From Colius striatus (Eukaryota > Chordata > Aves > Coliiformes > Coliidae), in contig NC_084774.1 of NCBI RefSeq assembly GCF_028858725.1, positions 9,646,001 to 9,710,000 of the forward strand: 64,000 nucleotides of DNA. The letters run 5' to 3'. Within the stretch, counting starts at the first letter, position 1, and each line of letters begins with the position of its first letter. A program made the position numbers and the translations under genes. The notes under the pieces are model-generated. The model was not told where the DNA came from. It ran no database searches and was given only the letters and a program-made list of their open reading frames with translations. This document shows, piece by piece, positions 3,048 to 62,106 of the stretch.

Positions 3048-3211
3048 ATGCTGATCAAACCTTCACTTCTTCCAGGCTTTCTGTGTTTTCTCCTCTTGCC
3101 TAGTTTCTCCTGCTCCTGTCCTAGTCGCTGCCTGTGCTTCAGGACTACAGTGAGATGTATGCATCTCATGTTGGAGACCATCCCTGATGTCCCACCCCAG
3201 ACAAGCATACT
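3048..3211 (+). CDS. PXDN-like: PXDN-like exon: signal-like peptide plus LRRNT
   Basis: The frame reads a hydrophobic start ([11 protein letters not shown]) and then the LRRNT cap [20 protein letters not shown], ending at donor GTGAGT in phase 2. The LRRNT identity is firm. The ATG at 3048 is not: a good acceptor (pyrimidine tract ending in TAG at 3101-3103) lies inside the supposed signal peptide, and a pyrimidine tract reads as Phe/Leu/Pro anyway. The coding part may therefore begin at 3104, with the real first exon upstream or outside the window. No CpG-rich promoter is visible around 3 kb. Confidence 0.8.
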
Positions 3212-24200: not shown

Positions 24201-27200
24201 TGAAATGCTGTCTTTAGGTGTCAGAGGAAAAGGTGGGGTGTCTGTAAAGTGCTCTATCGTGGCCTTGTGTGAAATCTCACACCCTCAAATGTTTGTCCCT
24301 GGAAATAACACTCCATGTTGGTTTAGTTTTGTTGGGTATTTTGTTTTCCAATGGCCCGGACCCATCTACTGTAAAAGTGCCAGTGGGGAAGGAGGCGGAA
24401 ACTTTGCTGATCCATAGGCAGAGCAGGAATGAAGTCAGTGTGTGCTCTGGGAGGTGGCTGGGGCTCTGTTCAGCAGGGCTCAGGTGGATGTTGCAGGAGC
24501 AAAAAGTTCTCATGGTCATGCAGAAATGCTGCAACTTCTCCAGCAGCTGCTCACAGGAGGAGATTGATCTGACGTGCACTAAAAGCAAGAGGGAGTTCTC
24601 TTGGAGATGAAAGAGAAGGGAAAGCTCTAACAGAGCCAGTGTTATCTGCCGCTCTTACAGACTTCAGCAAAGACTGAAATCTCTATCCATTGAGACTTCT
24701 CCATTGGGGAAACACCAATGTTTCAGTGTCTTGGCCTCAAATTAAGCCAAAATTACATAATCCATCTTAACAGAGTAAGTTGAGACTGAAATGAATGATG
24801 AGTGATGTTAGTTTTTCAATGAAATCCTTCTGACTTGCTTAAGCATCCTATTGAAACATGGTGGGAATGAAATAGCTCAAGTTTTGATTGGGAATAGAAT
24901 CCAATTAAACATGAGGAAGTTCTTCCCTGGGAGGGTGCTGAGGCACAGGCTGCCCAGAGAGGCTGTGGCTGCCTCAGCCCTGAGAGTGCTCAAGGGCAGG
25001 TTGGATGGGGCTGGGAGCAGCCTGTGGAAGGTGTCTCTGCCCATGGAAGGGGAGTTGGAAAGATGATCTTTAAGGTCCCTTCCAACTCCATCTGTTCAAG
25101 GGTTCTATGATTCTATGAAATGCAGAGGGGGACAGCCAGGTGACCCTTCCCTCTGGAGGGCTGTTCCCCTCCTGTGCCCTGGTGGAGGCAGCAATCAGAG
25201 GGTGGTGGGAGATCTCTCTGCCTTCTGCTCTGCCCTGCTGAAGCCTCATCTGGAGTCCTGTGGCCAGTTCTGGGTTCCCCAGCTCCAGAGGGACAGGGAA
25301 CTGCTGGAGAGAGGCCAGAGCAGGGCCACCGAGATGATCAGGACACTGGAGCATCTTCCTTATGAGGAAAGGCTGTGGGACCTGGGGCTGTTTAGTCTGG
25401 AGAAGAGGAGACTGAGGGGGAAGCTCATTGATATTTATAAGTGTATAAATGGTGGATGCCAGGAGGTTGGGACATCCCTTCTTTCTGTTGCACCTAGCAA
25501 CGGATGGGATGCAACACAAAAAGTTCCATGGAGGCTCCTTCTTTGGAAGTCTTCAAGATCCACCTGGACACATTCCTGTGTGACCTGATCTAGGTGGGAC
25601 CTGCTTTGGCAGGGAGGGGGTTGAACTGGATGAGCTCTAAAGGTCCCTTCCAAGCCCAACCATGCTGTGGTGCCGTGATTCGATGAAGTGCCTCTTCCCA
25701 TGCCTCGCAGGCGGCTGGACTCCAACGCCTTGCTGTGTGACTGCGAGCTGCTGTGGCTGGCTGAGCTGCTGAGGAAATACGCGGAGCAGGGCAGCACCCA
25801 GACAGCCGCCACCTGCGAGGCGCCGCGCCAGCTGCACGGCCGCTCCATCCGCACCCTCAGCGCCCGCGACTTCAACTGCGGTGAGCGAGGTCAAACCCTT
25901 CCCCCAGGCACAGGTTGAACTCGGGAACTGCTTCTTCCACCTCTTTCTCTCCCTTTTCCCTGTCCCAACACCCTCCTTTTCCTGCTGAGATAGGAAAGTG
26001 GCTCAGGATGTGAGTTGCCAGGCTGAAGCTGGCGGGAGTGTGGGGGTTGGAGGCAGCTCTGTTTGGTCTTCTTGGTGTTGAGAGCTTCTGCTGTGCTTGT
26101 GGTGGCTCAACCAGCAGCCAGAAGAGACATCTCACATTGAGATCTCACACAGGGAGAGTGGCAAAGGCTGGGAACACACTGAAAACCGGAGCAAGGGCAT
26201 GGGAGACACGTGGCTGAGTGATTTGCCTGTGGCTGTGTCCTGTGTTTGTTAAGCAGTTCTTTACATTTAGAGGAGTGCTCACTGTAAAATGCTGTTTGGG
26301 GAGGAAAGGTTTTGTCATGAAAAACATCCAAAGTGAAGTGTTTCCTGAAGAAAAAGACAAAGCTCTGACTTTTCAGTAGGGGCACAAGCTTTGGCTGTGG
26401 TTCCCTGATACTTCACTGCTGACAGAGGCAGTTTGAGGACATCCCACTCAGCCAGGCCAGCTATTAGCACCCCTCCTGGATGTGCCAGTCCAGCTGTGTG
26501 CATGGCCATGCTGTGAGCCAGGTGTGTGAGAGAGAACAGCTGGATTCTGAAGAGCTCTCCCTTGAATTCAGCATTTCTACTATGATTTTGTTATTATCTG
26601 TTGTTTTTGTCTAATCCTGACCATTTCACAGCTTAATTTAGGGCACAGCCATGCAAAGAGTTGAACTGGCACAAACAGGGCTGTGGCCTCAAGGGAGAGG
26701 GGAATGGGAAGGGTTCAGGGTTTAGGGGAAGCAGCTGAGGACACATGGAGTGGGACTGGAAGAGGATGTGCCTCTTGCACAACTGTTCCTGCCACACAGC
26801 CGGTGCCACGCTACAGCCCTTAGTGTCGATTTGTTCTGGGTTAGGCATGGGCACACAGTGGGAAGGCTGTGAAGTCAGCCAGAGCACCTGGTGGGAAGAT
26901 TTTGCTGGCATTAGGCTTTTATGCTGGTGTTGTGCCAGCTGGGAAAGACAAATGATGCATAATTCAGCACAAGGCTCTAATGATGCAGGCAGCTGATATC
27001 TGAGTCAGGATGGATGCTGCTGGCATCAAGTTAACCCACCACTTCCTAGCAGATGTGAGCCAGTGAGCAAACCTGCCCTGGATCAGCATTTTGTACTCTG
27101 AGGCTGTGGTGGGTTTGGTCCTGCACTGACATGGCTGTTGGGAGAGAAATTGCCAAGCCATCACCTTGTGCTCTGAGGAGGAAAGGCACTGACCTTCCCC

Positions 27201-30200
27201 TGCAGCGGTGGCAGGTTCTCCATTCACCTGATGAATGACTCAGCTGGTTTTGCTGGATTTCTGGGGAGCATATAGATCATTAGGTGGGTAAATATGGGCT
27301 TGGCAGTGTGAGGTGAGAGGTTGGATTCAATGATCTTAAAGGTCTTTTCCAACCCAAATGATTCTGTGAATTAAGATGAAGTGCTTCAGACCATGTGCAG
27401 AAATCCCTCCTTTGTTTTATCACATCCGCTAAGCATTTAACTTGCTCAGTGCTCGAGTACGTCTGAAAGTGAAGCACACAGTGAGAGGCTTGGCTGAGTA
27501 GGGGTTGGCTGAAGAGTAAGGGACATAATAAATGAAATCCTGTCAAAAGGAAGGTGCTGTGATCTGCAGAGAGCTGGCACTGTGTGGTTGGCAGAGTGGT
27601 CTGCAGAGAGCTGGCACTATGTTTGGATGGAGCAGGCAGTTGCTGAGAGCAACAGGCTGCCATGGACAGAAAAACAACCCAAGTGAAGATTGCACTGACT
27701 TCTTCACTTATTACTTTGAAGGAGACAAGGGCCACAACTCTTGGAGTGGCACTAGTTGAACCAGTGGACAGCCAGGTCTGTGTTTGTTCAGTGCTGCCTG
27801 GGGGTCTGCAAGGAGCTGATCCAATGCCCAACACAATGGCAATAGGAACAACCAGTTGCATTCTGCAGGGCTTTTAGGGGGCTCAGATGAACGGTGCTCT
27901 GGAATCACTCTGGGGAATGATGCCCCAGATGTTTGCTGCTGTTGGTGAGAAGCCCTGGGGTGGATGCCCTTGTGCTCTGTGGGTTCCTGCTTACTCAGGG
28001 GTGTCAGGGTGGGTGTTGTGTTACTCCCTGTAATAGGCTGTAGGTGGTTTTGTGCTGCTCTGGTCTTGGTCATGTTCAAATGGGTCTTTTGCAGAGAGGC
28101 CTCGCATAACCTCAGAACCCCACGACGTTGATGTCCTCTTGGGAAACACAGTTTATTTCACCTGCAGGGCAGAAGGCAACCCAAAGCCTGCAATTATTTG
28201 GCTGCACAACAAGTAAGTCTCACACAATGGGCCCTGGAGTGGCAAAGGTTTTCAAGCACTGAGCCCTTCAGTGACTGGCTGTAATTACAAAAGCTGTTAT
28301 ATGTGTCACAGAAAGGGACATTCCATGGGTTGCATTTACCTTCCTTTTAACAGCATTCTCTGGTGACCACTAATCCAAGTGGTGTTTTCATCTGCATTTG
28401 AAATATCTCATCTGCATTTGTAATGGATCCTGAGAGCTTCTAGCTTTCCCATAAACATACTCTGCAGGCTGAAGGTGATGCTCTTTCATCAGGAAAGAAA
28501 AAGATGAGTACTTCACCTTGCTCTAAGCCACCATGACTGCCATGTATTAACTGCTGCAATGTTCCTAGTCTCTAGGTTTCTCTCACTGAAGGCCTGGTGT
28601 GCTAGAATGGCTTTTCTCTTTGTTTTCAAAGGGAACTTTCAGGGTTCCCCTGCAAGACAGACCTTGAGGTTATCATTCCATACAACAAGGCTGAAGATAA
28701 ACAGCTGTGCTGGATGCCAGAGTGTTTCTGGGGAATACTACACGAGGAAATATTCTGAGCTCAAGGAGTTGCCCAGTGTGGAAGTGAAGTTACTTTGCTG
28801 CTTTAGGAGGTTTTGGTCTGTGGGAGCCTGAATAGAGATGGGTTATTAATAAAAATGATTAATGGATGCTTCTCCAGCTAATTCCCCACCAGGCAGGGCT
28901 TCAGCACACTGCAAAAGTTTATGGCTGAGTTAAGTCCCCCTGGAAGGAAGGTTTTGTTAGGAAAATGCTGGCAGGCTCCCAAAGATAGCATTGTAAAGAG
29001 GGGTAATGATAATAAATGTTCCACAAATGAGATATGACTGGAGTGAGGGGAATGAAACAAATGCCCAGCAAGCATATTAGTTTGCACAGTGGATTCAGCC
29101 TTTGTCCCAGGGGGAAGAGAGGTCCCTTCTCCACTTTCAATCATCTGCAGCCATCCAAGATTCCTTCATGCTGGGACAAATAGGATGCAGCAGCAGGACC
29201 TTCTGCCTCGGGCTGGGATCCAGGAGCTGCAGGTCATTGTAGAAAGCAGGAAGATGTTTCACAGCTCTTGGGCTGGGTTGGAGCCCAAGCTGTGGTGGGG
29301 TCCCATGGTGACTGACATAGGGGTTTTTTTAGCCCCCCCTGAGGCCTTTGAGCCTGTTGGAATAGAAATGGCTGCACACAATAACAATATTAATTCATTA
29401 TTCTATCTGCATTTAGTAAATAATGAGAAGAAGCTTTCTGGGTCTAGATGCCCTGACAATAGCAAGGATGCCACAGCGTGGGAACAGCGTGCTCTCCTGA
29501 TGGGCTGTAAATGTCCTCTGTAAGCAGTGGTGAGAGAAAAACTAGCTCACCCAGGGAGGAAATCAGAGCTGGAGCTGAGGTGCAGTGCTGTAAAGCATCA
29601 CTCTTGCTATAAATTTCCAGAACAGCCCCCCCACTGCCTCAGCAGCCCAGGGCACAGCACCTCTCTGCACTTCTGACAGATTTCGCCTGTTTGTGGCTGT
29701 TTTCCAGCAATGAGATTGACATGAAAGATGACAACCGCCTCAACCTGTTGCAAGATGGTACCTTGATGATCCAGAACACCAAGGAGTCAGACAAAGGCAT
29801 CTACCAGTGCATGGCCAAGAACATAGCTGGGGAGGTCAAGACACAAGAAGTGGTGCTGCGCTACTTTGGCACCCCAGGTAACTGAGCCTTGTGCATCCCT
29901 TAAAGGCTCATCTTGCTTTGGGGCTGGGAGTGGAGCTAAGTCAGAGGCAGTCCCAGCTTTGGGTGTGCTGAGATGTTCTTGGTGTGCTGGGAGTGTGGCT
30001 GACAGTTGTGGCGTGGCCTGAGCTTCAGAGGAGTGGGAAACTGGAGGTTTGAAGGTAATTTGGGGCTGGGGAGGGAGGTTGGGAGGAGTTCTGCAGCACA
30101 GAGGCATCAAGCATGAAGGGGACACACGAGTGGGGATGCTCCAGCATTAAGGGATTGGGAGGGAGGAGTGAGAACCTGGAGTCAGGGAAGAGCCAGGTGA

Positions 30201-33200
30201 TTGCAAGCTGGCTTGCATGAGGAGCCCAGGCAATTTGTGGCTGTGAGGAGGCAGCAGAGCTGCTGGGTTCTGAAGCGCTCGTTTCCTTCCAGCCAAGCCC
30301 AGTTTCGTGATCCAGCCGCAGAACACTGAAGTGCTGATTGGGGAAAGTGTCACCTTGGAGTGTGGGGTCTCTGGGCACCCCCACCCTCGCATCAGCTGGA
30401 CCCTTGGCACGGACTCTCCTTTACCACAGGACTCTCGTTTCACTATCACCAGCTCTGGGGGACTCTTCATTCAGAATGTCACCTTCTCAGACCAGGGACA
30501 GTACAACTGCAACGCCAGCAACAGCGAGGGATCCATCCAGGCAACGGCAAGGATCATAGTGCAAGGTGAGGAGCCCCAGGCTGATGGCATTGCTGGGATA
30601 CTGTGTTTGGTCAGGGGGCTGTGTTTAAGCCCTGTGGCTGATTCTGCTCCCATGAACTGAGATTTAAGCCCAGCTTGCTGCCTGAGTTGTTCCTGCTGCT
30701 CAGTCATTGCTTTTCCCCTCCAGATTCTCCCAGGTTTCTCCGTGTTCCCACTGATCAGACAATAACAGAGGGACAAAGTGTGGACTTCCCCTGCTCAGCT
30801 GAGGGTCACCCTTCACCTGTGATTGCCTGGACCAGAGCAGGTACTGCCTCATTTGACTCATGATTTCTTTCTCATGCATGGGATGTGTGTGAGAAGAGCA
30901 GAGCTGATGGTGCAGGGAGGTGTCTTGCAGCGGTGGCACAGGACAGATGGTGATCAGCACAGACCCAGTCACACTAGGAGGTATGCTGTAGATCATCAAA
31001 GATGATATTAAGCACTGAGGAGGGAGCCTCTAAGGTCTTTGACCCACTAAATCATTGTGTCAAAAGGAAAGAGTGTGCTGGTTTTCATCTGCAGGCAAAG
31101 CCTTGAACTTCCTCCTGCACTGGCTTCCTGCCTCCTGGGAAAAGGCAAGGTCTGGACTCTCCAAGTCAGTAGATATCACCAGCCCTCCATCATTGTCATT
31201 GATGCAGAAGAGCACTGTTCACCTCTGACACACGTCTGAGGTTTCTTTTAGCTTAGGAAAATCCACTCTAGGACAACAGGTGGTGTTGAACTTTTAAAGT
31301 CTGGGATGATTATTAGCACTGGCTCCACTGAGCTTATCCCATCCAGCACTTTCTGGGACAGAAGCCAATAGCACTTGGCCCAGAGGCCCTCCAACTTTTC
31401 CTTATGCTTCACAAGCCATAATTAATGGTTTAGTGCTGTGGAGAATTCATGGCTATTGTATTCCAGCTTCCACAGCAATATCCCTGATGCAGAGTTAAGA
31501 AGGACCAGCTGAAATTCCCCTTCAGCAGCGTGTTCTCCATCTCCTTTAACCTCTTTTCCTCCACTGCCCAGATTTCAGAAGAAATACCTCAGAGATGTGG
31601 AAGGGAACACAGTGACAGGCAGTGAGGTTAATAACTGCGTTGTAACCAGGCTTCCCAAGTCACTCAGCAATCCAAAGGTCGCTGGAGACAGGCTAAGAAC
31701 AAGACAAGAGGAGGAGGAGGAGTGGTGGAGCATCACTCGTTTCAAAGCCGCTTTTGACAGCGTGGGGAGGGTTCAGATTCCTTTTGGGATTTGGGGGATG
31801 AATAAACAGAGCCCTTCTTTGGAGGAGAATGGAACCTTTGAAAAACAAAAGTAGCTAAACACAGAAGTTGTAATGATTGTGTTTGGGTTTGGGAAAGCAT
31901 GGTTAATTTTCAACTTCTCTCCTTAAATAGAGGAGATACTGAAAGGGCAGAGCTTCCACACCAAAGGAAATCAAAAGAGCAAATGAAAACAGGCAATGCT
32001 GAGTGTTTCCATTCATCTGATTGAACAGCCAGTTTGGATAATTGGACACAGTTTTGCTGTCCATCAGGCATCACAGTTTGCACTAAGAAGTGAGGGAAGG
32101 AGGAGGGCACCAGCTCCTTTCCAGTTGCTTGGACACAGCCACCGAGTCACGATCCTGAGTGAGGGAAGAGCAGCATCTGTGCTGTTCCTCACCTAGCAAG
32201 GTGAAGATGGTATTTCAGGGTGGCTGATGCCACATTGGGAAGGAAATGATGTTTTTCAACTGTCACACAGACACCTCCAGTGATGGGAAGGGAAATCTCA
32301 CAGAGAATTAACAGGTTGCACTGCTTGTTTGACCAGGTGGGCCACTGCCGACCGACCGGAGGCACAGCATCCTCTCCACGGGCACCCTGCGGGTGATGAG
32401 GGTGGCTTTGCATGACCAAGGGCAATATGAGTGCCATGCCATCAGTGCCATTGGAGTGAGGACTCACCCAGTGCAGCTGACAGTGACCCCACGAGGTAGG
32501 CTGGCACAGCCACGGCAGTTATGTAACGTCACTGTGGATAGCACACTGTCTGCCAGGGCAGGGATGGGGCTTTGCTTTTGCCTGGGAGCAGATGTGTAGC
32601 CCTGAGAGCTGGTGGGAAACGTTAGAAGAGGTTTCCAGAGTGCCATCATTTGAAGAAGCTGCTTCAGTTTTCCTTGAAAAATCATCTGGGAGTCTAGAAA
32701 AGGTACAAGCATGGGGATGAAACTCATCTGGTGTGAGCAGAGAGCGAGCTGGTCTCAGCTGGCACCTGCACAAGTCACTAGGGTGAGGTTGTGGGGTCAG
32801 AAATGGCATTTAATGCCCATCAGGTGAGTTCTGATACTGGACTGGTTGGAGTGAAAAGTGAAGCTTTTTAGTAAGTGTGGGAGTTGTCATTAAGAACATA
32901 AATAGAGGAAAAGACCATTTAAAACAACGTGATTAGTACATTCTTAGTGGGTGTTTCCCCCCCTATTTTTGAGCTTTGTCTTTCCCACAGAAGGAATTGT
33001 GGGATTTCTTTTAAAAGTGAAATATTCTGCAAAGCAAAATGATCCCTTCCCAGGAAGATTGAACTCTGACTCCACAGACATTTGCCTTAAAGATTAGCTG
33101 CCAGATTCCAGGTTCAACCTCAATCAGGCCTCAGTGAAACACAAGTCACACAGGAATGCTTTCACATTTAAACTCTCTTTTTTTGGTTTGTTCCCACACA

Positions 33201-36200
33201 GTTATTCATTCTGGATAAGAAAACATCCCCACTTGTTCACAAGCACAGCAGAATTTTGCCCCATGGTAGGCTGGAGGGAAGGAAACTTCCCTAGAAACAT
33301 GAAATCAGTGGTGCTTCAAGCACAGAGTTCACAGAGTACTTCATGATCAGCAAAATAAATGTGATTATTTAATCTGAGAGGACTGACAGCTGCCAGAGAG
33401 CCTCATCCAACCATTCCTGCAGCCATTTGCCATCCTTTAAAGTGGATAGAGCATCTTTTCTAGAAAGTCTTTGACTGACCCATTTTAACTGACAGAGAAC
33501 CAGGCACATTCCTGTGTAATTGCCCCAAGTAGAGACACTGGGGAGCAGAGGATAATGAATGTAAATCACAGAGGACTCTGTAGAGAGACAGAGAGCATGG
33601 TGTAAACTGCCAGCCCTTTAAAGAGCCCTTGCAAGAGCCCAGCAGCTCTGCTCTGCCCACGCTGAGATGTTTGGCAGGCAGGTTTCTCTGCTCTTCCTCA
33701 TGCATTTCTTGCCCTTGTGACTCTTTTCCTCTCTGCTTTGCACAGTGATACCCGTGTTCCTTCATCCCCCTCAAGATGTGGTGGCAGAGACGGGCCAGGA
33801 CGTGTCCATTAGCTGCTCTGCCCAAGGAGATCCACGGCCCACCATCACCTGGGTGAAAGTAAGAGATGATTCCATGTGGGTGGCAGTCCCTGGAAAGCAG
33901 GGTGCTGCTTCTGGAGGGCATGAAGCAGCTCTTTCATCAAACACCTTCCAGCTCAGCTCATTAAATCAGTTTGCACAGCACACATGGGAGAAATCCTGTT
34001 TGATGAGAGATTAAGGACCAACATTTCCACTGATTGGGGGGGTTGATGGTCTAAAAGGATGTTGCTCCTTCTCAGGCTCCAAGCTTTGCAATGCACATTC
34101 TTGTTTTCTCTTGTTCTTCCTTCCAAATGAGTAACTTGAAGCCAGTGCCCTCCCAGGATGTCAGAAACACTTGATTGATTGACTGTTCCAGGAACAAAAC
34201 CAGAAGATGGGATTTTCTTCTGAGTAGTTTGTCCTTATTTCCAGGATTCCCACTGATGGAGCTGGATGATTTTGACTTGCTTCAGATTTGAAGGGGCAAA
34301 GCCATGACCCCTCAAAATCACACTGCAGCCTGGCTGCTCTTTGCATTAATTCATTAGATGAAGCTCTTCAGACTTTTTGCTGCTTTGCCATAGTACAACA
34401 GCCATGACCTTCCCTGGGACCTGCCTCACCTGTGAGCACAGTCAGGAACGGAACAAATTAGAGGGGAAAATGCTTGAGCCTCAGTTACCCCACAGAGATC
34501 TCGCGAGAGGATGACCTTGCAGCTTGCCTTGGGGTCCAACCAACAGTAGGAGGAGAAGAAAAGAGCCCAGGAAGGCAGTGGAGTAAGCATTAGAGTGGGG
34601 CAGTGCAGCAGAAAGATGTTAAGAAACAGGAGAATAAAACCCATTAAACTTGAAGCCACTTGTGGCAGCAGCCAGGTTGAGAGGTGGGATCAGTGATGCT
34701 GCCCACAGACAGCAAAAGCTGGTGTATGCAGTTCAAGGTCAGCAAAATTCCATCAGTTTCAGGCTGTCCCAAAACTGAAGACTTTTAGGCTTATTTATGT
34801 GCCATGAAGCAGGGGCACAGCACTCACTCCAGCCAGCCCAGCTGTGAAACCTGCAGAGGCATGCTGTGGGGTGTTTGTGCCCTGCAGTGGGTGCCTGGAG
34901 GTGGAGCAGGGTGAAGTTGCTGAGCAAGTGCCTCCTGGCAGTGGGTCCAGGCAAGAGCAGATGGTTTTGGATGGCTTTCTGGTTCCTTTGGAAGAGCAAT
35001 GCTAACATCTGCTGGCCATGTGTGTTCATCACATCCCTCTCAGAATCCCTGAGTGGTGGGGGCTGGATGATGGGCCCTACAGAGCTCATCAGCTCAAGCT
35101 GCTGCTACAGCAGGTTCCCCTGGCTCAGGGGGCACAGAAATGTGTCCAGGTGGGTTTGGAAACCTCCTGAGAAGGAGCCTCCACACCCTCCCTGGGCAGC
35201 CTGGGCCAGGGCTCCCTCACCTCAGCACCAAAGGACTTGCTCCTCCCGTGCCAGTGGAACATGCTGCGCTCCAACTTTTGTCCATTACCCCTTGTCCTGT
35301 CACTGGCCACCACAGAAAACAGTCTGGCCCCATCCTCCTGACACCCACCCTTTAGGGATTGCTCAGCATTGAGAAGGGCCCCCGTCAGCCTTCTCCAGAC
35401 TAAACAGCCCCAGGTCCTGCAGCCTTTCCTCGTAATCCCTGTGGGTTTGGTGAACAGGCTGAAGGTTGGCACGCTGGGAAGCTTTGCATACCCTGACATC
35501 TTTTCTATCTTCCAATTCTGCAACAGGAGGGTATCCAGATCACAGAGAGTGGCAAGTTCCACATAAGCCAAGATGGGACCCTTTCCATTCAAGACCTCGG
35601 TGTGGCAGACCAGGGCAGATACGAGTGCATCGCAAGAAACCCCTTTGGCTTCACCTCCAGCACCATGCAGCTCACCATCACTGGTATGGTATCTCCCATG
35701 GGTCTCTCCAGTTTTCCCCTGCTGTCACACAAAGAAGGGCTGTGCTATGTTGATATCTACACCTTGATCAGATAACTCTGTTATTTCTTCAGCCCCTTTG
35801 CAGACAGGTCCTTGCTCCTTGCTGTTTTCTCAGCTGAGCAGCAATTGCTTCCTGCAAAGGCAAAAGGTGTTGTCTGAAACAGCCTCCTGCAAGCTGAGCT
35901 GAAGTTCCTGTCCCAGCTGGGAGGCAGAAACTTATTAAAATGTCCCAACATATTTGGCCCTGGGGAAGCTGTAGCTCCAGGGCTGTGTTCAGTGCTGGGC
36001 CTCTCACTCACTGCCACAGGGACACTGAGGGGCTGCAGCGTGGCCAGAGCTGGGGAAGGGGCTGGAGCACAAGGGTGCTGGGAAGGGGCTGAGGGACTGG
36101 GGGTGTTGAGCCTGGAGAAGAGGAGGCTGAGAGCTTTTTCCCTGAGAGGGGTGTCAGCCCCTGTGCCAGGCTGCCCAGGGAGCTGGGGGAGTGCCCAGCC

Positions 36201-39200
36201 CTGGAGGGATCCCAAAGCTGTGGAGCTGAGGTGCTGAGGGCCAGGGGTTAGTGCTGAGCTTGGACTCAATGATCTTGAAGTTCTTTTCCAACCAAAGCAA
36301 TTGTATGACTCTGTGAACATGCTCACAAGTTATCCTCTGATGGTAACCTGGAGTGCCTGGGGAGGGAGAAGGAGAACAAGTGTTGCTGCAATATAGGGTT
36401 TTAAATGTTGCCCAGCCCCTTGGCGATGGGAAGTCCCTCGCTTTCAACCTGCTGCATCGTGTGTGAGGGAAGCTGTAATGAATAAAGAGGAGTAGCACTC
36501 CTGTGCTAGGCAAACCAGAGGTCAAGAGGGGAAACTGTAGTTCTTAGAGGGTAAGGAAGAACTCACAAGGAAAAAAGAAATCAAAGGCAAGCAATCAAGT
36601 TAAAAACATAAGCATGCAGGAATAAGCAGCATGGGCTGTGAGCAGCTTATTAGATGAATCTGGTATCATTTGCTATGTGGGGATTGTATGTGAGGAGCTG
36701 AGAATCATCTGAACCCTCTGTTGTTTGACATTGCTCTTAAGATAATGTCTGTGATTTATTCTTGACTGGTACCTCATTTTCCAGCTGATATGTTCTGTCA
36801 GCCAAATGAGAACTGGTTTATTTAGCTGGGACAAAGGCCCTGGCTTTAAAAACCCATTCTGTTATGGTTTGTAAGAGTCCAGGTGTTTACTTCTGAAGGA
36901 ACCCCAACAACAACTTTCATCTTTATTTCAAGTGATGTATCTGCCACGTTAGCACTAAATTTGAACTGAACTAGGAGCGTTCCACGAGTGGAAAATTAAC
37001 ATGAGCAACACATTCAAATGAATTCAAATGACTCTCAGAAGCTTCCTTTGTGGGAAAGTAAATCCAGGAATTTGGGTGAATCCACCCTGAGTCTTTACAT
37101 TTCCTTTTTCCAGTTTAACCACCAACCAAACCAGGCACTTATTGGCAAAGCTGTACAGGAGCAGCCTCTGAATATTCCACAGCCATCTCCTGAAAAAGTC
37201 ACCTTCTTTTTCAGGCAATTAACGTTCTTCTTCAGATTATCTGTTTAAGGAACCCAAACAACCCAAATGAATGCTGTTTGTGTTGCAAATAGAAATGCAG
37301 CTCGACCTGGTGATGGTTTAACCTTGACTGAGATCCAGGTATCCATCAAGTTGTTCCATCACTCCCCCTCCTAAACTGGACAGGGAGGGGAGAAATATCA
37401 TGAGAAGTTTGTGAGTTAAGGACAATGAGATCACTCAGCAATTAGGGTTCACAGGCAAAACAGATTCAACTCACAGGCAAAACAGACTCAACCTGGGGAG
37501 AAAAGGTTTCAAACCAAAACAAAGCAGGGAGAGAGACCCTGCAGTTGGGTACTGCAGGGATTGTAGTGCTATGCATGTTTTTCTTGAGCTTGGAAGAGAA
37601 TATCAAAGTAAATGCAGAACCTTTGGTTTGCTGTTCCTGCTTTGCAAAGCCACGGATGTGGGTCGGAGCGGTGACACGTTCGTAGCTACGTCCATACGAG
37701 AAGCCATCAGCAGCGTGGACCACGCCATCAACTCAACACGCACTGAGCTGTTCAGCAAGTAAGTACCTGGAGCATCACCAGCTGAGAGGTGATCACATGT
37801 TAAAAAAGATAAGGCAATGAATGAGTGGAGCTTTCTGAGGTCTCATTTTGTCGTTGGCAACCTGCGAGTGAAAGCTACGGTGTAGCGCTTGGAGTGTTGG
37901 AGGTTGGAGCTGCACCATGTAGACGTGAGGTTGTGGCAAGAGCATTTGGGCTTCTAGGAAACTCTGAGTGTCACCTCTTATGTCACTTGTATCTGCAACA
38001 TACCTTTTGCCTCCAGAGATAGAAAGTGATCAGCCTGGTCATTTCATAAACCCAGCTGCCTTTCTGTAGGGTGAACAGAAATAGCAACAGACTAACTCTA
38101 ACCATTTCCTCAATGCACAGTGACATGCACCGAATGGTCATTCCACCCCAATGTATGGGGTTTCCTTCTTGAAAGGACAGTTTGTAGTAAGGCCAAAACC
38201 TCTGGGTTAAATTCAATTGCTATAGCAGAAAAAGCCCCCAGAGATGCTGAGGAAATTCAGTGTGTGTGTTGGGGGTTGCACTGGATGATCTTTCGAGGTC
38301 CCTCTGACCCTTAAGATTCTGTGATTCTGTATTTTCCTGGGGAAAATGAGCTTTTCTAATTAATCTGCACCATGCAGGCAAGCCACACTGATCTTGTGCA
38401 CTAGCTTTGGGGGGTAACACATCAGACCAAGCTTAGAGCCTGACTCTGTCTGTCTGCAGGGTCTCATTGCTCTGAGCAGAGTCTCTTTGTTTTCGTGTTC
38501 CTGTGTCACTCCTCATTCCTTGAAACAGGCGCCCCAAGACACCCAATGACTTGTTGGCTCTGTTCCGTTACCCCCGGGACCCCTACACCATTGAAACAGC
38601 CAGGGCAGGGGAGATCTTTGAAAGGACCTTGCAGCTGATCCAGGAACACGTGCAACAGGGTCTAATCGTGGATATGAACGTCACAGGTAGGGGAGATTTC
38701 ATTTCTCTCCTTTAAGCACGGAGTTCAGTTAAAGCAACAGTGCCTAAGACATCCATAGAGTTCCAAAAGTGAATTGTGAGTATGTCAAGAACTGTGTGGT
38801 CTGGGTTCCAGTTCTCTCTCACATCTCATGGTTTTCATAACAGCTTGAGGAGTGCTCTTGGGTTTACCTTCCCAGCCTGATGCTCAGCAAAAGGATTCGG
38901 TTCCCTGTATTGCTGTGGCCCTAATCTTTAAAAGCATTTAGTCATCTCAGGAGCATCTTTGTGGATCTGAGGTTCAGTTCCCCAGCAGCATGGTCAGAGG
39001 TGATTCCTGCCCTCCCAAGTGGCCACGAGAAAAAGGTCTGGAGTATTTGGGTGCTGTAGCAGAGGAAGGGGGATATCACTCCCCTCTCTCTCTGCTACTT
39101 TGACCTCTTAGCTACAGACTCAGAGGGTTCCAGCCACTCAGGCTCCTTTTATCAAGGCAGGATAGCAAGCAACAAAGAAATGCAGCACCAGAAATACTTA

Positions 39201-42200
39201 GTGAGGTCCAAGCATCCAGCAGCTGGACTCCAAAACTTGCCAGCTGGGCTTTCCTCTCTATACAACAGCCATCCCTTTCCCCTGCACGTTTCTGCCTCTA
39301 TGTGTGAGTCACCATGCAGCAGCCATCTACGTTTGGGGCCTGAAAAGACTTCTTTTCCTGCCTGGATGTATTCCAGGCTGTGAGGAGTGTGTCTCTCCAG
39401 GCTGCAGGTCTCGTCTGGGCTGGTTGGGCCTCTGCTCCCCATTGCCCCGTCAGCATCCGCACAGCATTATCCTGGCACTCACCTACAGCTCCCTGCTCCT
39501 CGTCACGTACAGTTGAGGTGGTTGATGGTGCTTGAGGTCGGAGTAATAACCCAGAAAATAAACCCAGGAGGGAGACTGAAGCCACCCTTACTGTTTGGTC
39601 CACCAGTCACAGCATTTCTAGTTCCCCCCTCCTTGCATTTCATTCTAAACCCTTTCCCCTTTCTTTTCTTCTCTGTGAGCCTGACACATGCTCCATAAAT
39701 GACCCAGCAACCCCCAGCCCCCACCTCGCCGTGTGTCCCCTGTCAGTCTCAGCAGCGAGTTTCAGGCTGAGCCCTTACAGGGGGTGCTGGAATGGCCGTG
39801 GTCTGAGCTGGTGCTTTGCCCTTCCCTTTCAGGCTATCGGTACAACGACCTGGTGTCCCCTCACTACCTGAACATGATTGCCAACCTGTCGGGCTGCTCT
39901 GCCCACCGCCGCACGCCCAACTGCTCCCACGTCTGCTTCCACAAGAGGTACAGGACCCACGACGGCTCCTGCAACAACCTCCAGCACCCAATGTGGGGTG
40001 CGTCCCTCACAGCCTTCCAGAGGCTCCTCAAACCCGCCTACCAGAACGGATTTAACCTCCCCAGGGGCTTTTCCTTAGCAGAAGACACCAGGGAACTGCC
40101 CCTTCCTCTGCCTCGCCTCGTCTCCACCGCCATGGTCGGCACCGAGACCATCACCCCCGACGAGCAGTTCACTCACATGCTCATGCAGTGGGGCCAGTTC
40201 CTGGACCACGACATGGACCAGACTGTGGCAGCCATTAGCATGTCCCGCTTCTCGGACGGAGCACCCTGCAGCCAGGTGTGCAGCAACGACCCACCCTGCT
40301 TCTCCATCGCCATCCCCGCCAACGACCCCCGCGTCAGGAACGGCCGCTGCATGTTCTTCGTGCGCTCCAGCCCCGTGTGCGGCAGCGGGATGACGTCCCT
40401 GCTGATGAACTCCGTCTATGCCAGGGAGCAGATCAACCACTTGACGTCTTACATTGACGCCTCCAACGTTTACGGCAGCACAGAGCAGGAGGCGCGGGAG
40501 CTGCGGGATCCGAGCGGCCGGAACGGGCTGCTGAAGCGAGGGCGAGTGGTGCCCAGCTCGGGAAAGTATCTCCTTCCCTTCTCTGTGGGGCCACCCACTG
40601 AGTGCATGAGGGATGAGAACGAGAGCCCCGTGCCCTGCTTCCTGGCAGGAGACCACCGTGCCAACGAGCAGCTGGGGCTCACGGCCATGCACACGCTCTG
40701 GTTCCGGGAGCACAACCGCGTGGCGGCGGAGCTCTCGGCCCTCAATCCCCACTGGGACGGAGACCTCCTGTACCACGAGGCACGCAAGATTGTGGGTGCC
40801 CAGATGCAACATATCACCTATGCCCACTGGCTCCCCAAGGTCCTTGGGGAAGCTGGGATGAAGATGTTGGGTGAGTACAAAGGCTACAACCCCAACGTGA
40901 ACGCGGGGATTCTCAACGCCTTCGCCACTGCTGCCTTCCGCTTCGGGCACACCCTCGTCAACCCCATCCTGTACCGGCTGAACGAAACCTTCCAGCCCAT
41001 CCGCCAAGGCCACCTCCCCCTGCACAAGGCCTTCTTCTCCCCTTTCAGGATCACGCAGGAGGGGGGAATTGATCCCATCCTCCGGGGGCTGTTTGGGGTT
41101 CCTGGGAAAATGAGGGTCCCCTCCGAGCTCCTCAACATGGAGCTGACGGAGAAACTCTTCTCCATGGCTCACTCTGTCTCGCTGGACTTGGCTGCTATCA
41201 ACATCCAGAGAGGGCGAGACCATGGCATCCCACCTTACAACGACTTCAGGGTCTTCTGCAACCTCTCGTCTGCACAGGAGTTTGAGGACCTCAGAAACGA
41301 GATAAAGAACTTGGAGATCAGGGAGAAGCTCAGGAGGTACTGTAGCCTGGGCTTGGAAGCGTCAGAATCACTGGAGATTAGTCAGTGAAAAGTTTCAGCC
41401 TCTCCCAGGATACCCATCAGATAACCTTGCCAGATATTCCCACCCACAGATGTTAGATAAGGTAATAGCTGGGGTTTAAGAGCAGGGGTAAGACAAATGA
41501 AGTCTCCCCAAGTGATCGCTCTGGTTCTGGGCGGGATGTCATCAGGCACTGCTGTGGTGTGGCTGGGGAGCAGGTTGAGCCTTGGAGCTATTTTCCAGTG
41601 AGATTACACTGCATCCTATCTGCCCTGGCTGCCTCTTTCCAAGGCAGGCCTTTGTCCTGTTGCCTTTTAGATAAGACCCTTGTGAATCTTGCCCAGATGA
41701 GTTCCTTGCACAGAAACCCCTATGATGGGATAACATTTATATCCTCTCCACTCTTTGATAGCCTTTTAACTTGTTTGTACTCTGTTATCCTGCAGTTTAT
41801 ATGGAACTGCCAAAAATATTGACCTGTTTCCAGCACTGATGGTGGAGGATCTTGTCCCTGGGACCAGAGTTGGACCAACGCTCATGTGCCTGTTGACAAC
41901 ACAGTTCCGAAGGCTGAGGGATGGAGACAGGTTTGATCATCCAAATCAACCCAGACTCTTTGGTGTTCTGCTTGTGAGGGATTTGAACCCTGCAGGGAGG
42001 AACAGGACCTGTAGTTTTTGATTGTTTCTTGTCTTGTGATATGAGGGAGAGTCTTCCCTGCCCAGTGCATTAGCAAAAGGACTTGCCCCAGTTACTGTCA
42101 ATGTGTCTTTTGCTGATTTAATGATCCTCATCTTGCTGCAGGACTCTGGGCACCACTGAGGATGTGCCCATTTTCTCACAAAGGTGCTGGAAAAAGACAG

Positions 42201-44366
42201 CAGAGGCTTCCTTCTGGTTCCTATTTGATGCTTGTGTGAATGAGACACATCTTCGGTTGCGCACTTAGGGCAGGAGTATTGTTGACCCCCATCCCAACCT
42301 GCTACAGCAGAGCTGTCTGAGCCTTGGGATTCCCTTGCAAGGGGCTGTACCTGTAGGGTACAAACAGCTCCCAGGGGTTCATGTGTTCAGAAAAGGGCAG
42401 TCTGTGTTCACAGCTGCCTGAGGTTGGCATGGAAGGTCCTTTAGAAGGGTGTGGGCGCTGCCACATAGATGCAGCAGAACACTTGTGTGTCTCTCAGCCT
42501 CCCTCCCCGTGTTCTTCTCCTGAGTCACGCTGTGATTACAACCCACTGCAGGTTTTGGTATGAGAACCCCGGAGTGTTCACGCCGGCGCAGCTGACTCAG
42601 CTCAGACAGACCTCCCTGGCTCGTGTCATCTGTGACAACAGTGACCACATCCAGCAGCTCCAGAGGGATGTGTTCCGGGTGGCATCCTACCCACAGGGCA
42701 TGGTTGGCTGTGAGGAGATCCCTGCAGTGGACCTGCGCTTGTGGCAGGACTGTTGTGAGGGTGAGGAGGCTGCTGCAGCAGTGGGGGGTGTGGGGGTGGC
42801 TCTGGGAGCATTTCTCACGTGCTGTCAGCAGAGGTGAAATGCCAGGAGCTGGTTTCATCCTGTGCTGTGAGAACTGTGTGTAAGCAAAAGGATCAGAGAA
42901 TCACAGACTGGTTTTGGTGGGAAAAAACCTTGAAGCTCCTGGAGTGCACCCCCTGCCCTCACCCTGCCCAGCCCAGCACTGACCCACAGCCCTCAGCACC
43001 TCAGCCCCACGGCTTTGGGATCCCTCCAGGGCCGGAGACTCCCCCAGCAACCTGGGCAGCCTGGCACAGGGGCTGACACCCCTCTCAGGGAAACAGTTCT
43101 GCTTCAGCTCCAATCTCAGCCTCCCCTGGTGCAACCTGAGCCCATTTCCTCTTGTAAAACTCTGGCATTAAACCACAGACCCTGCCATGGTCCTTTTGTG
43201 CTATATCTGGGTACAGATGTCCAGCTGAGACATGGGAATCCATGCATGACACATGCCTCGTGTCAACACCTTTGTTGCCTCCTCCCCTCTGACATAAGAG
43301 ATGTGTCAAGGGTAGATGGTGAAAGAGGGCAGTGCTGCCCTGTGCTGCCTGCAACCCACACAATCCTGCTTTAATCACGAGTGCTCACTCAGACTTTCCC
43401 TTCCTTCCCAAGACTGCCAGACACGTGGGCAATTCAGGGCTCTTTCTCAGCGGTTCCGAAGCAAGAGATCTCCTGGCTTCAGCTACCCAGAGGAAAACCC
43501 TGCCAAGCACAAGCCTGCCTTCCCCAGGTGTAGTATCACCACTTCTTTTACCTCCAGTTTGTCAAGCATAAGACATTTTAATAACCCAGCACACCCAGTC
43601 CTTTGAAGTGGACGTCCTGCAGAGATCTGGGGGCCAGGGCTGTTTCAGGAGATGCTGAGCTCCACCAAAATCCTCCCAGTTCTATTTAACTAGCTGGGCT
43701 GGGTGGCTGGTTGGTTGGCATCTCTCAGCAGGTGAATTTGGCAGCTGGGCGCTTCTCATTGATGCTTTACCTGGCTGTTGGAGAGGGCAGAGTGGCTCTT
43801 TCCTCCAGGAAGCTGACTTTTGCATAATCCCTTTCACTTTTTATCCCTGACCCCAGAAGTGAGGCACCTTCTCCAAGCCCTTCCTCCAGAGAGAACCTCG
43901 AGTCCCTTGTGGCTGAGCTGCAGAAGACAGTTGCTTCCCTAAGGAGACAGGTAAAACCTTGTGCCCCAGTGTTTGTCTCCTGTGGAGTCACCCCCAGAGC
44001 AGGATCTAGCTGTTTGCTACAAGCAGCCTCTGAGACTTTAGTGTCCTCCAGAGCCATGAGCAACCCCCTAATCCAGAGGGAACCTAGTGGCAGGTACAGA
44101 AGTAGAGAGAGAAGAGATGAAGCTGAGCTCTGTAGGGTAAAACACAAGTTTGAGCCTCAGTGAAGGCAGCTTGAGCCAGCACTTTCTTCTTGTATTTGGG
44201 ATGGGTTAAAGAGTATCTGTGCAATGGTGCAGATGCCTCTTAGAGCTGCTGCTTTCTCATCCCTCCCCAGGTAAATGCACTGGAGAGCCAGCTGAGGTGG
44301 CACCCCAGGAACACCAGCACTCAAGGGCAGGGGAAGAAGACTGAAGACAAATGGAGGACAAGATGA
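3048..44366 (+). CDS. PXDN-like: Peroxidasin-like secreted haem peroxidase (whole gene, 22 coding exons)
   Basis: Joined exons give 4,221 nt, or 1,406 aa (human PXDN is about 1,479), with every intron GT-AG and the frame intact. Order: signal-like peptide 1-23, LRRNT from C24, five LRRs to about 174, LRRCT to 232, Ig1 232-328, Ig2 328-418, Ig3 419-510, Ig4 511-600, linker, peroxidase domain from 690, furin-like site RSKR ending R1324, coiled coil about 1358-1383, stop. Peroxidase residues are present: distal Q811, D814, H815, R965 with E968, and proximal H1062. C724 and C1303 match the cysteines that link the human trimer. Known family role: uses hypobromous acid to form sulfilimine bonds in collagen IV of basement membranes. 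This gene lies beside SRMS and PPDPF, unlike PXDN (near MYT1L) or PXDNL (near PCMTD1/ST18), so I infer a third paralogue. The VWC domain is missing. The true first exon is uncertain. Confidence 0.88.
3212..13152 (+). other. PXDN-like long intron between LRRNT and LRR 1
   Basis: About 9.9 kb of intron. The only repeat I recognise is a CR1 tail near 10883. Minus-strand open stretches at about 5401-6276 are noted separately as unresolved. Confidence 0.75.
10883..10944 (-). mobile_element. CR1 LINE 3'-end fragment
   Basis: Begins TTCATAGAATGG and continues GGTTGGAAGGGACCTTTAGA, the reverse complement of a CR1 3' end. Confidence 0.8.
13153..13224 (+). CDS. PXDN-like: PXDN-like exon: LRR 1
   Basis: A 72-bp phase-2 exon reading [15 protein letters not shown] and then RRLKNLNTL, nearly the peroxidasin family sequence. 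Acceptor TTTTAG, donor GTAAGT. Confidence 0.95.
14008..14163 (+). repeat. Long inverted repeat, left arm
   Basis: Starts GTTTACCATCTAAGAAACAT. About 150 bp match the reverse complement of 15188-15343 with roughly a dozen differences by eye. Family not recognised. Confidence 0.85.
15188..15343 (-). repeat. Long inverted repeat, right arm
   Basis: Reverse complement of the left arm, separated from it by about 1.0 kb. No target-site duplication is apparent outside the arms. Confidence 0.85.
19171..19385 (-). mobile_element. CR1 LINE fragment
   Basis: CAGAATCATAAGGATTGGAA followed by GGGACCTGGAAAGCTCATCC and the usual lysine/leucine-shadow frames of CR1. Reverse orientation. Confidence 0.85.
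19654..19725 (+). CDS. PXDN-like: PXDN-like exon: LRR 2
   Basis: A 72-bp phase-2 exon reading [20 protein letters not shown] and on to KYL. Acceptor AACAG, donor GTGAGT. Confidence 0.95.
19940..20011 (+). CDS. PXDN-like: PXDN-like exon: LRR 3
   Basis: A 72-bp phase-2 exon reading [20 protein letters not shown], only 214 bp after the previous repeat exon. Acceptor GAAAG, donor GTAAGT. Confidence 0.95.
20012..21857 (+). other. PXDN-like intron between LRR 3 and LRR 4
   Basis: No gene recognised. An A-rich stretch near 20375-20415 and a short GA run near 21649 are the only features noticed. Confidence 0.6.
21858..21929 (+). CDS. PXDN-like: PXDN-like exon: LRR 4
   Basis: A 72-bp phase-2 exon reading [20 protein letters not shown]. 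Acceptor TGACAG, donor GTAAGT. Confidence 0.95.
23389..23460 (+). CDS. PXDN-like: PXDN-like exon: LRR 5
   Basis: A 72-bp phase-2 exon reading [20 protein letters not shown]. Acceptor TTGCAG, donor GTAAGT. Confidence 0.95.
24900..25119 (+). mobile_element. CR1 LINE 3' fragment (first of a tandem pair)
   Basis: Ends in TTCTATGATTCTATGAA after AAGGTCCCTTCCAACTCC, the CR1 3' terminus. It is abutted directly by a second, longer CR1. Confidence 0.88.
25120..25686 (+). mobile_element. CR1 LINE 3' fragment (second of a tandem pair)
   Basis: About 570 bp of CR1 3' coding end and UTR, including GGCTGTTTAGTCTGGAGAAG. It ends in GTGATTCGATGAA only 24 nt before the LRRCT exon. Confidence 0.88.
25711..25880 (+). 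CDS. PXDN-like: PXDN-like exon: LRRCT cap
   Basis: Encodes [20 protein letters not shown] and the rest of the cysteine-flanked C-terminal cap, ending in DFNC. Markedly GC-rich next to the introns. The acceptor lies only about 24 nt after the end of a CR1 element. The exon starts in phase 2 and ends in phase 1. Confidence 0.95.
27310..27372 (+). mobile_element. CR1 LINE 3'-end fragment
   Basis: GGTTGGATTCAATGATCTTA and then TTTTCCAACCCAAATGATTC, ending TGTGAATT. Confidence 0.8.
27558..27625 (+). repeat. Short tandem duplication
   Basis: The stretch TCTGCAGAGAGCTGGCACT occurs twice, about 40 bp apart, at about 27563 and 27600. Confidence 0.7.
28095..28212 (+). CDS. PXDN-like: PXDN-like exon: Ig domain 1, first half
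   Basis: Reads [20 protein letters not shown] and on through [19 protein letters not shown]. This holds the first Ig cysteine and the core Trp. Donor GTAAGT. Confidence 0.95.
28213..29707 (+). other. PXDN-like intron inside Ig1
   Basis: About 1.5 kb. No repeat or other coding sequence recognised. Confidence 0.6.
29708..29877 (+). CDS. PXDN-like: PXDN-like exon: Ig domain 1, second half
   Basis: Reads [20 protein letters not shown] and then the [11 protein letters not shown] strand with the second cysteine, ending LRYFGTP. Donor GTAACT. Ends in phase 1. Confidence 0.95.
30293..30565 (+). CDS. PXDN-like: PXDN-like exon: Ig domain 2
   Basis: The only Ig domain encoded by one exon (273 bp, phase 1 to phase 1). 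It carries [11 protein letters not shown], the core Trp in ISWT, and [11 protein letters not shown]. Confidence 0.95.
30724..30840 (+). CDS. PXDN-like: PXDN-like exon: Ig domain 3, first half
   Basis: Reads [20 protein letters not shown] and then [19 protein letters not shown]. Donor GTACTG. Confidence 0.93.
30841..33745 (+). other. PXDN-like introns around the second Ig3 exon
   Basis: Outside the exon at 32337-32495 I see nothing recognisable except a short GAG triplet run near 31709-31722. Confidence 0.55.
32337..32495 (+). CDS. PXDN-like: PXDN-like exon: Ig domain 3, second half
   Basis: Reads [20 protein letters not shown] and then [18 protein letters not shown]. Acceptor GACCAG, donor GTAGGC. 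The phase joins correctly to the exon ending at 30840. Confidence 0.93.
33746..33858 (+). CDS. PXDN-like: PXDN-like exon: Ig domain 4, first half
   Basis: Reads [20 protein letters not shown] and then [17 protein letters not shown]. Donor GTAAGA. The following intron is phase 0. Confidence 0.94.
35038..35445 (-). mobile_element. CR1 LINE fragment
   Basis: Starts CAGAATCCCTGAGTGGTGGG. Includes CCCTGGGCAGCCTGGGCCAG and the stretch that reads as CR1 reverse-transcriptase C-terminus on the minus strand. Lies in the intron between the Ig4 half exons, ending about 80 bp before the second half. Confidence 0.88.
35527..35683 (+). CDS. PXDN-like: PXDN-like exon: Ig domain 4, second half
   Basis: Reads [20 protein letters not shown] and then [12 protein letters not shown]. 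Ends in phase 1 at GTATGG. Confidence 0.94.
35966..36317 (+). mobile_element. CR1 LINE fragment
   Basis: GCTGGGGAAGGGGCTGGAGC through GAGCCTGGAGAAGAGGAGGC to a tail GTATGACTCTGTGAA. Confidence 0.85.
37650..37758 (+). CDS. PXDN-like: PXDN-like exon: linker before the peroxidase domain
   Basis: Reads [20 protein letters not shown] and then [15 protein letters not shown], the helical linker that precedes the peroxidase domain in peroxidasins. Acceptor TTTGCAAAG, donor GTAAGT. Confidence 0.92.
38268..38331 (+). mobile_element. CR1 LINE 3'-end fragment
   Basis: Short tail GCACTGGATGATCTTTCGAG ending GATTCTGTGATTCTGTA. Confidence 0.8.
38529..38686 (+). CDS. PXDN-like: PXDN-like exon: start of the peroxidase region
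   Basis: Reads [20 protein letters not shown] and then [18 protein letters not shown], nearly identical to the family. Contains the N-glycosylation-type motif NVT at its end. Confidence 0.95.
38687..39832 (+). other. PXDN-like intron before the main peroxidase exon
   Basis: About 1.1 kb with no recognised repeat. An open frame runs from 39733 into the exon, but the phase and the acceptor at 39831-39832 show that coding starts at 39833. Confidence 0.6.
39833..41336 (+). CDS. PXDN-like: PXDN-like exon: catalytic haem peroxidase domain
   Basis: A single 1,504-bp exon, GC-rich and fully open. It holds [18 protein letters not shown] (C724 matches a human trimer cysteine), the distal motif GQFLDHDMD (Q811, D814, H815), HRANEQ (R965 and the haem-linking E968; the Met found here in myeloperoxidase is Gln, as in PXDN), and FGHTLVNP with proximal His H1062. 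The exon ends at GTACTG, in phase with the exon at 41796. Confidence 0.97.
41796..41930 (+). CDS. PXDN-like: PXDN-like exon: peroxidase domain, C-terminal part 1
   Basis: Reads [20 protein letters not shown] and then [20 protein letters not shown]. Acceptor CCTGCAG, donor GTTTGA (weak but in phase). Confidence 0.95.
42552..42760 (+). CDS. PXDN-like: PXDN-like exon: peroxidase domain, C-terminal part 2
   Basis: Reads [20 protein letters not shown] and ends [12 protein letters not shown]1303 in the CC pair matches the second human trimer cysteine (C1315 by my recollection). Donor GTGAGG. Confidence 0.95.
42892..43160 (-). mobile_element. CR1 LINE fragment
   Basis: Starts AGAGAATCACAGACTGGTTT. 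The same family as the copy at 35966, in reverse orientation. Confidence 0.85.
43413..43527 (+). CDS. PXDN-like: PXDN-like exon: furin-site exon
   Basis: Reads [20 protein letters not shown] and then a Pro/Lys-rich tail. RSKR followed by Ser fits the R-X-K/R-R proprotein convertase motif and lies at the position of the processing site of human PXDN (RGRR). Donor GTGTAG. Confidence 0.9.
43857..43950 (+). CDS. PXDN-like: PXDN-like exon: coiled-coil exon
   Basis: Reads [20 protein letters not shown] and then [11 protein letters not shown]. With the next exon it makes a heptad pattern: L1358, L1365, L1372 and L1379, with V1362, V1369, V1376 and L1383. Confidence 0.88.
44271..44366 (+). CDS. PXDN-like: PXDN-like terminal coding exon (stops before VWC)
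   Basis: Reads [20 protein letters not shown] and then [11 protein letters not shown] followed by TGA. The KW motif corresponds to TKWKKDAC at the start of the VWC domain in PXDN. The stop therefore falls exactly where VWC should begin. Sequence after the stop still resembles that exon out to a possible old donor (AAG before GTCAGT, about 44389). Confidence 0.8.
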   Translation, partial: VNALESQLRWHPRNTSTQGQGKKTEDKWRTR

Positions 44367-47068: not shown

Positions 47069-47074
47069 AATAAA
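47069..47074 (+). terminator. Candidate poly(A) signal for the PXDN-like gene
   Basis: First AATAAA found on the plus strand after the stop codon at 44366. It would imply a 3' UTR of about 2.7 kb. Weak support. Confidence 0.22.
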
Positions 47075-48656: not shown

Positions 48657-48674
48657 GAAAGAAAGAAAGAAAGT
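48657..48674 (+). repeat. (GAAA)n microsatellite
   Basis: Four GAAA units in a row, upstream of SRMS. Confidence 0.8.
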
Positions 48675-49115
48675 AAAGCCCCACTCTCCCACACAAGCGA
48701 GATGGAGTCTATTAACTGGAGTCAGCCACTTGTCACAAGAGCTGCTTGAGGAGCAGAGAGCTGTGTTTACTGGTGCTCTGGTAACGAGCAGGAGAGAGCA
48801 CTTAATAATTAAAAGGGCAAAAGGAAAATAAGCTGTTGTTCTTGGAGAGCAGCGAGGCTCCAGCTGTGCCCCGCTCCCAGATGTGCCCCTGGCTCCCAGC
48901 CTGGGACTCCCTCCCGCCTCCCAGACTCGTCCCACCTGCAGACTCGTCCCACCAGATGAACCAGTTTCACTTTCAGAAATAGGAAGCTGGCAGGGGCAGG
49001 GCCAGGAGTGCCCAGACGCGCTCAGGAGGGACAGGGGACAGCAGCATGAACCCGGCATCGCCCCCTCCTGCAGCCCCCAGCCCGGCCGTGCCATAGCCCA
49101 TCCCATCGCACGGCC

Positions 49116-57113
<7,998 letters not shown>

Positions 57114-62071: not shown

Positions 62072-62106
62072 GGCTCTTGATCTTGGTTCTTGTGCAGATC
62101 TCAAAC
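62017..62106 (-). CDS. PPDPF: PPDPF exon 2 (short 5' UTR and start codon)
   Basis: Acceptor CCCCCAG, then a 35-nt 5' UTR, ATG at 62071-62069, coding to YYR. Donor GTAAGG. Confidence 0.92.

Follow-up and report, generated by a model that had tools for sequence, protein, structure and literature searches.

Peroxidasins strengthen the sheets that lie beneath tissues, and the Colius striatus genome raises the question of which member of this family lies beside genes that we associate with human chromosome 20. In human, PXDN neighbours MYT1L, PXDNL neighbours PCMTD1 and ST18, and MYT1 and PCMTD2 are located at 20q13.33 together with SRMS and PPDPF. The original prediction held that a stretch of 64,000 nucleotides (C18:9646001-9710000, hereafter "the window") carries a complete peroxidasin gene directly upstream of SRMS and PPDPF, and that this gene is a third vertebrate copy which human lacks. 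With regard to human, the prediction agrees with a 2012 survey of the family (PMC3533774, partial text), which lists two human peroxidasin genes, at 2p25 and 8q11, with 63% identity between them; a third human entry is near-identical to the second and perhaps represents a splice form.

The window was found to contain one open coding sequence with a start codon at 3048, a stop ending at 44366, 22 exons and 4221 nt, encoding 1406 amino acids (Table 1). Exon borders were set by homology to PXDN and by the GT-AG rule, without transcript support, and GT-AG was observed at 21 of 21 introns. The lengths of exons 2 to 19 (n = 18, including the 1504-nt peroxidase exon) are identical to those of the PXDN exons on contig C3. 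Pfam searches revealed LRRs, four I-set domains and the haem peroxidase domain (An_peroxidase, PF03098; 671.8 bits). The window protein thus shows the domains by which peroxidasins are defined (i.e., signal peptide, five LRRs with caps, four Ig domains and haem peroxidase domain; PMC3533774, partial text), with the caveats that the C-terminal LRR cap (PF01463) scored 16.8 bits, below the curated cut-off of 20, and that the N-terminus was judged hydrophobic and signal-like by eye. Rfam returned nothing above its gathering cut-offs; among solved structures, none of the 42 matching the peroxidase exon, and none of the best 60 of 189 matching the N-terminal part, was named peroxidasin. LINE-like coding remnants, which we take to resemble avian CR1, were seen at ~25067-25590, with similar ones near 35 kb and 54 kb; some of these recur widely in the C3 region. 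A pseudogene was rejected in view of 1406 open codons and low pN. Both predicted downstream neighbours were found as well, the kinase gene being one that fits SRMS; the predicted completeness, on the other hand, did not hold for the C-terminal VWC module, which is absent from the window gene.

Table 1. Features of the window gene, its neighbours and the paralogous blocks (window positions unless a contig is given; C, contig)
Feature	Position	Strand	Basis
Peroxidasin gene, probably of a third ohnologue type; 22 exons, 1406 aa	3048..44366	+	exon model with GT-AG borders, Pfam domains
Exon 1: signal-like start, LRR N-terminal cap	3048..3211	+	exon model
Exons 2-6: five 72-nt LRR exons	13153-13224, 19654-19725, 19940-20011, 21858-21929, 23389-23460	+	regex scan, exon model
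Exon 7: LRR C-terminal cap	25711..25880	+	exon model, Pfam
Exons 8-14: four Ig (I-set) domains	28095..35683	+	exon model, Pfam
Exons 15-16: linker	37650-37758, 38529-38686	+	exon model
Exon 17: bulk of haem peroxidase domain, 1504 nt as in PXDN	39833..41336	+	genome search, exon model, Pfam
Cys724, counterpart of human PXDN trimer Cys736	39934..39936	+	alignment; role from PMC8533639 (partial text)
Gln811, Asp814, His815, Asp816 (QFLDHD), distal haem residues	40195..40212	+	alignment
Arg965, catalytic; Glu968, haem-ester	40657..40668	+	alignment
His1062, proximal	40948..40950	+	alignment
Asn1146, proximal His partner	41200..41202	+	alignment
Exons 18-19: end of peroxidase domain, second trimer cysteine	41796-41930, 42552-42760	+	exon model, alignment
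Cys1303, second trimer cysteine, equivalent of Cys1315	42751-42753	+	alignment
Exon 20: carries convertase-like site	43413-43527	+	exon model
RSKR^S, proprotein-convertase-like site in exon 20	43457..43471	+	alignment to C3 PXDN RGRR^S; human site function from PMC8533639 (partial text)
Exon 21: tail beyond cleavage site	43857..43950	+	exon model
Exon 22: degenerate match of PXDN first VWC exon, early stop	44271..44366	+	exon model, PXDN comparison
SRMS-type SH3 and kinase gene, downstream neighbour	~49116..57113 (limits approximate)	+	Pfam, ORFs
PPDPF (PF15060), two coding ORFs, downstream neighbour	61185..62131	-	Pfam, ORFs
C18 block: MYT1, PCMTD2, window gene	C18: 9599213-9604159, 9636193-9636474, window gene	+	PF08474, PF01135
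C6 block: ST18, PCMTD1, relic	C6: 55476794-55459300, 55360171-55359890, 55188532-55185168	-	PF08474, PF01135, relic searches
C3 block: MYT1L, PXDN	C3: 27923544-27912889, 27832274-27746608	-	PF08474, peroxidasin search
Peroxidasin relic near PCMTD1-type gene: remnants of two exons, with stops and frameshifts in the larger one	C6:55188532-55185168	-	homology searches

When the window protein was compared with PXDN from C3, 982 of 1384 residues (71.0%) were identical, and the two genes showed a pS of 0.889 (i.e., saturated) and a pN of 0.196, which together exclude chance likeness. Identity was highest in the first Ig domain (82.1%) and the peroxidase domain (431/548; 78.6%) and lowest beyond the cleavage site (20/65; 30.8%). 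All eight catalytic residues checked (Gln, Asp, His, Asp, Arg, Glu, His and Asn) are conserved, and so are the two trimer cysteines; the roles of these residues are those described for human PXDN, as is that of the cleavage site (PMC8533639 and PMC3533774, partial texts). This mapping is backed by the spacing in MPO (148, 97, 85), and the calcium loop LTSYIDAS is retained. In a relative rate comparison against MPO over 455 columns, 22 changes were confined to the window gene and 20 to PXDN, suggesting that the enzyme domain of the window gene evolves as slowly as that of PXDN. As judged from these sequence features, the bird most likely has a second active peroxidasin in the window protein, which would be secreted and form a disulfide-linked trimer. 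A proprotein convertase would cut it at RSKR^S, and its haem would make hypobromous acid, leading to collagen IV cross-links in the basement membrane; we infer its enzyme activity, substrate and tissue.

The VWC domain of C3 PXDN, which that gene keeps, is split over two exons, as seen by reading the sequence. Exon 22 of the window gene can be aligned with the first of these as far as the conserved Trp, beyond which it runs into a stop codon. A second VWC exon was not found downstream, either by regex scans of window positions 43000-52000 (a pattern that, owing to the split, also failed to match the VWC of C3 PXDN) or by tblastn of the whole window (best scores 20.0 and 21.9 bits), and the 29 genome-wide matches of the C-terminal part of PXDN included no VWC match on C18 and no additional peroxidasin. 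Peroxidasin clades 1, 2 and 4 are likewise without VWC (PMC3533774, partial text), and VWC is thus not a defining feature of peroxidasins at large. Human PXDN enters the matrix only in its cleaved form (PMC8533639, partial text), from which we infer that VWC loss would be tolerable; the module, which lies behind the cut, may have been dispensable in the window copy and decayed. Loss of VWC with retention of everything before the cleavage site represents a natural test of what the VWC module does.

VWC loss could instead mark a changed role or early decay of an ohnologue that is no longer an active cross-linker, as the poorly conserved tail behind the cleavage site might also suggest. The convertase motif is little proof of the contrary, since human PXDNL carries such a motif and yet stays uncut, cleavage being dependent on peroxidase activity (PMC8533639, partial text). 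We nevertheless regard a loss of cross-linking activity as rather unlikely, given the high identity of the peroxidase domain, the retained catalytic residues and a rate equal to that of PXDN, and given that the part behind the cut may not be needed for matrix entry.

The whole genome (1.21 Gb, 191 contigs) was searched for further peroxidasins. The peroxidase exon gave 12 matches, i.e., one in the window gene, one in PXDN (C3:27765870-27767351, reverse strand; 78% identity), four in a gene near PXDN on C3 and five in a gene on C25 (which we presume to be TPO-like and of MPO/LPO type, respectively), and one at C6:55187968-55188378 (reverse strand), with 36% identity and 9 stops. PF03098 gave 31 matches, distributed over C18 (3), C3 PXDN (3), the C3 TPO-like gene (7), C25 (8), C9 (5), C12 (2), C24 (2) and C6 (1); the places at C9:21338760-21344759, C12:22181919-22184121 and C24:1903519-1905819 are of haem peroxidase type. 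With PXDN residues 1-670 as the query, identities of 59-98% were observed only on C3 and C18 among 87 matches (66 of 648 candidates scored), and the remaining matches, at <=46%, were taken for other LRR or Ig proteins.

The neighbours of these genes form comparable blocks on three contigs. PF08474 (MYT1 family) had 12 matches, four each on C18 (forward), C6 (reverse) and C3 (reverse), and PF01135 had 9 matches, with single places on C6 (reverse) and C18 (forward) that are flanked by the MYT-type gene on one side and the peroxidasin on the other; the same PF01135 search found no PCMT match between MYT1L and PXDN on C3. On both C18 and C6, MYT-type gene, PCMTD-type gene and peroxidasin thus follow one another in the same order and orientation, and C3 shows the same arrangement minus PCMTD, with PXDN placed between the TPO-like gene and MYT1L. 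The names PCMTD1, PCMTD2, ST18, MYT1 and MYT1L were assigned by linkage and by the positions of the human genes rather than by trees. The paralogous neighbours expected of ohnologues from the 2R duplications, equally ordered and on different chromosomes, are therefore present, C3 being without PCMTD. The window gene adjoins PCMTD2 and MYT1 and does not occupy the position of PXDNL beside PCMTD1 and ST18. The 5 matches of PF18012 fall on C16, C6 and C18, one place each, and we take them to be alpha and beta syntrophins (SNTA1-like on C18, SNTB1-like on C6), where the C6 and C18 places agree with a correspondence of C18 to human chromosome 20 and of C6 to human chromosome 8. Gamma-syntrophin, a further neighbour expected in the block, was undetected by PF18012 beside PXDN or the C6 relic.

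This relic was read in 20 kb of C6 (55180001-55200000). Its peroxidase exon is broken into pieces in three frames, which span window-protein residues 878-1074, and aligns to PXDN over 440 columns, 33 gaps included, with some 59% of nucleotides identical; a match of the next exon follows 2.7 kb further, in the expected order and on the expected strand. The peroxidase exon scored 59.7 bits with the window protein and 61.2 bits with PXDN, as compared to maxima of 25.0 and 25.8 bits, respectively, in 60 rounds of permuting letters inside 200-nt blocks, and it passes the PF03098 cut-off (28.2 vs. 25 bits) with 2 stops. The second exon scored 31.2 bits with PXDN, as compared to a shuffle maximum of 21.2 bits (n = 60); with the window protein, it was missed at default settings (best score 15.8 bits, at another place) and matched at sensitive settings (29.3 bits, E = 0.014). 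N-terminal exons were found neither in these 20 kb nor among the 87 matches of the PXDN N-terminal query (66 of 648 candidates scored), and last exons were not found in the same 20 kb. As an intron-like spacer divides its two pieces, the relic looks like a decayed gene rather than a retrocopy. Its place beside PCMTD1, on the expected strand, indicates that a peroxidasin once stood there. Judged by its place, the relic likely represents the remains of avian PXDNL.

Overall, we consider it likely that the window gene is the 20q13-type peroxidasin ohnologue, and that this genome keeps PXDN and the window copy, with PXDNL present only as a relic, while human keeps PXDN and PXDNL. An ancestral block of MYT, PCMTD and peroxidasin would have been multiplied in early vertebrates, presumably at the whole-genome duplications, and its 20q13-type copy would have been kept on C18. 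The predicted third copy is borne out by synteny within the same genome, where PXDN is separate (on C3, by MYT1L), the window gene lies by MYT1 and PCMTD2, and a third block runs from ST18 through PCMTD1 to the relic. The accompanying expectation of separate PXDN and PXDNL genes holds for PXDN; on the PCMTD1 side, peroxidase-exon, PF03098 and PXDN N-terminal searches found no intact gene (the sequence itself being read from 55180001 to 55200000). As only this relic of PXDNL was found here, the losses look reciprocal, with the bird having lost PXDNL and human the 20q-type copy. An ohnologue is well supported by position and relic, and reciprocal loss would be the new element.

The gene itself is not new, as it is annotated in chicken as PXDNL, together with PCMTD2, at chr20:9.06-9.10 Mb of GRCg6a (PMC7240924, partial text). 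An assembly join in the window, which would have undermined the original prediction, was rejected on the basis of this same pair of neighbours. The chicken gene is very probably the orthologue of the window gene, a likeness by position rather than by sequence, and PXDNL is named among the RNAs that were reduced in the breast muscle of chickens given a supplement (PMC8464878, partial text).

The chicken annotation could also indicate that the window gene is PXDNL proper, i.e., the orthologue of the human 8q11 gene, moved beside PCMTD2. The two genes share, besides the name, a position next to a PCMTD gene. Such orthology would fit the placement of bird sequences in the Pxd2 branch (PMC3533774, partial text), as well as the failure of the above searches to find an intact gene beside PCMTD1. 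However, the PCMTD1 side of this genome holds a relic on the expected strand, and the order and orientation of MYT1 and PCMTD2 around the window gene mirror those of the other blocks, a match that transposition would hardly give. Moreover, the window gene keeps Gln811, Asp814 and Asn1146, whereas the Pxd2 group is without the equivalent Gln91 and Asp94 and is variable at Asn421 (PMC3533774, partial text). Orthology to human PXDNL thus seems improbable. A more recent PXDN duplicate, segmental or lineage-specific, that landed on C18, as the overall identity and the identical exon lengths might suggest, is highly improbable given saturated pS, the MYT1 and PCMTD2 neighbours from the same block, and the same neighbour pair in chicken (PMC7240924, partial text).

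The 20q13-type ohnologue has to be reconciled with the published tree, in which vertebrate peroxidasins form two branches (Pxd1 and Pxd2) with birds in both, rather than three (PMC3533774, partial text); this speaks against a plain three-branch picture. The same survey has two entries each for chicken and zebra finch, three for turkey and four for Anolis. Its bird Pxd2 sequences may be window-type genes that group with mammalian PXDNL; with reciprocal losses, and in a tree that takes no account of gene position, a copy of 20q type could fall there unnoticed, and reciprocal ohnologue loss could thus explain a two-branch tree despite three genes. Among titles and abstract openings, a set with subscription papers mostly outside it, we found neither a third peroxidasin ohnologue named nor the avian "PXDNL" described as a positional non-orthologue of mammalian PXDNL. 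The bird "PXDNL" is probably misnamed, and if the two are different ohnologues, neither name nor function could rightly be carried over from human PXDNL to the bird gene or back. On balance, we lean towards the bird gene being a different, catalytically intact and VWC-free enzyme as compared to the inactive human PXDNL, such that birds would have two active collagen IV cross-linkers and human one active and one inactive.

In comparison with PXDN, then, the window gene shares the order of domains as far as the cleavage site, the lengths of exons 2 to 19, catalytic residues, trimer cysteines and a convertase-like site, and differs in its protein identity, its lack of VWC and its location on a PCMTD2/MYT1 side rather than a TPO/MYT1L side. 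The two genes also differ in GC3 (0.72 for the window gene vs. 0.41 for C3 PXDN), a gap that may reflect chromosome size.
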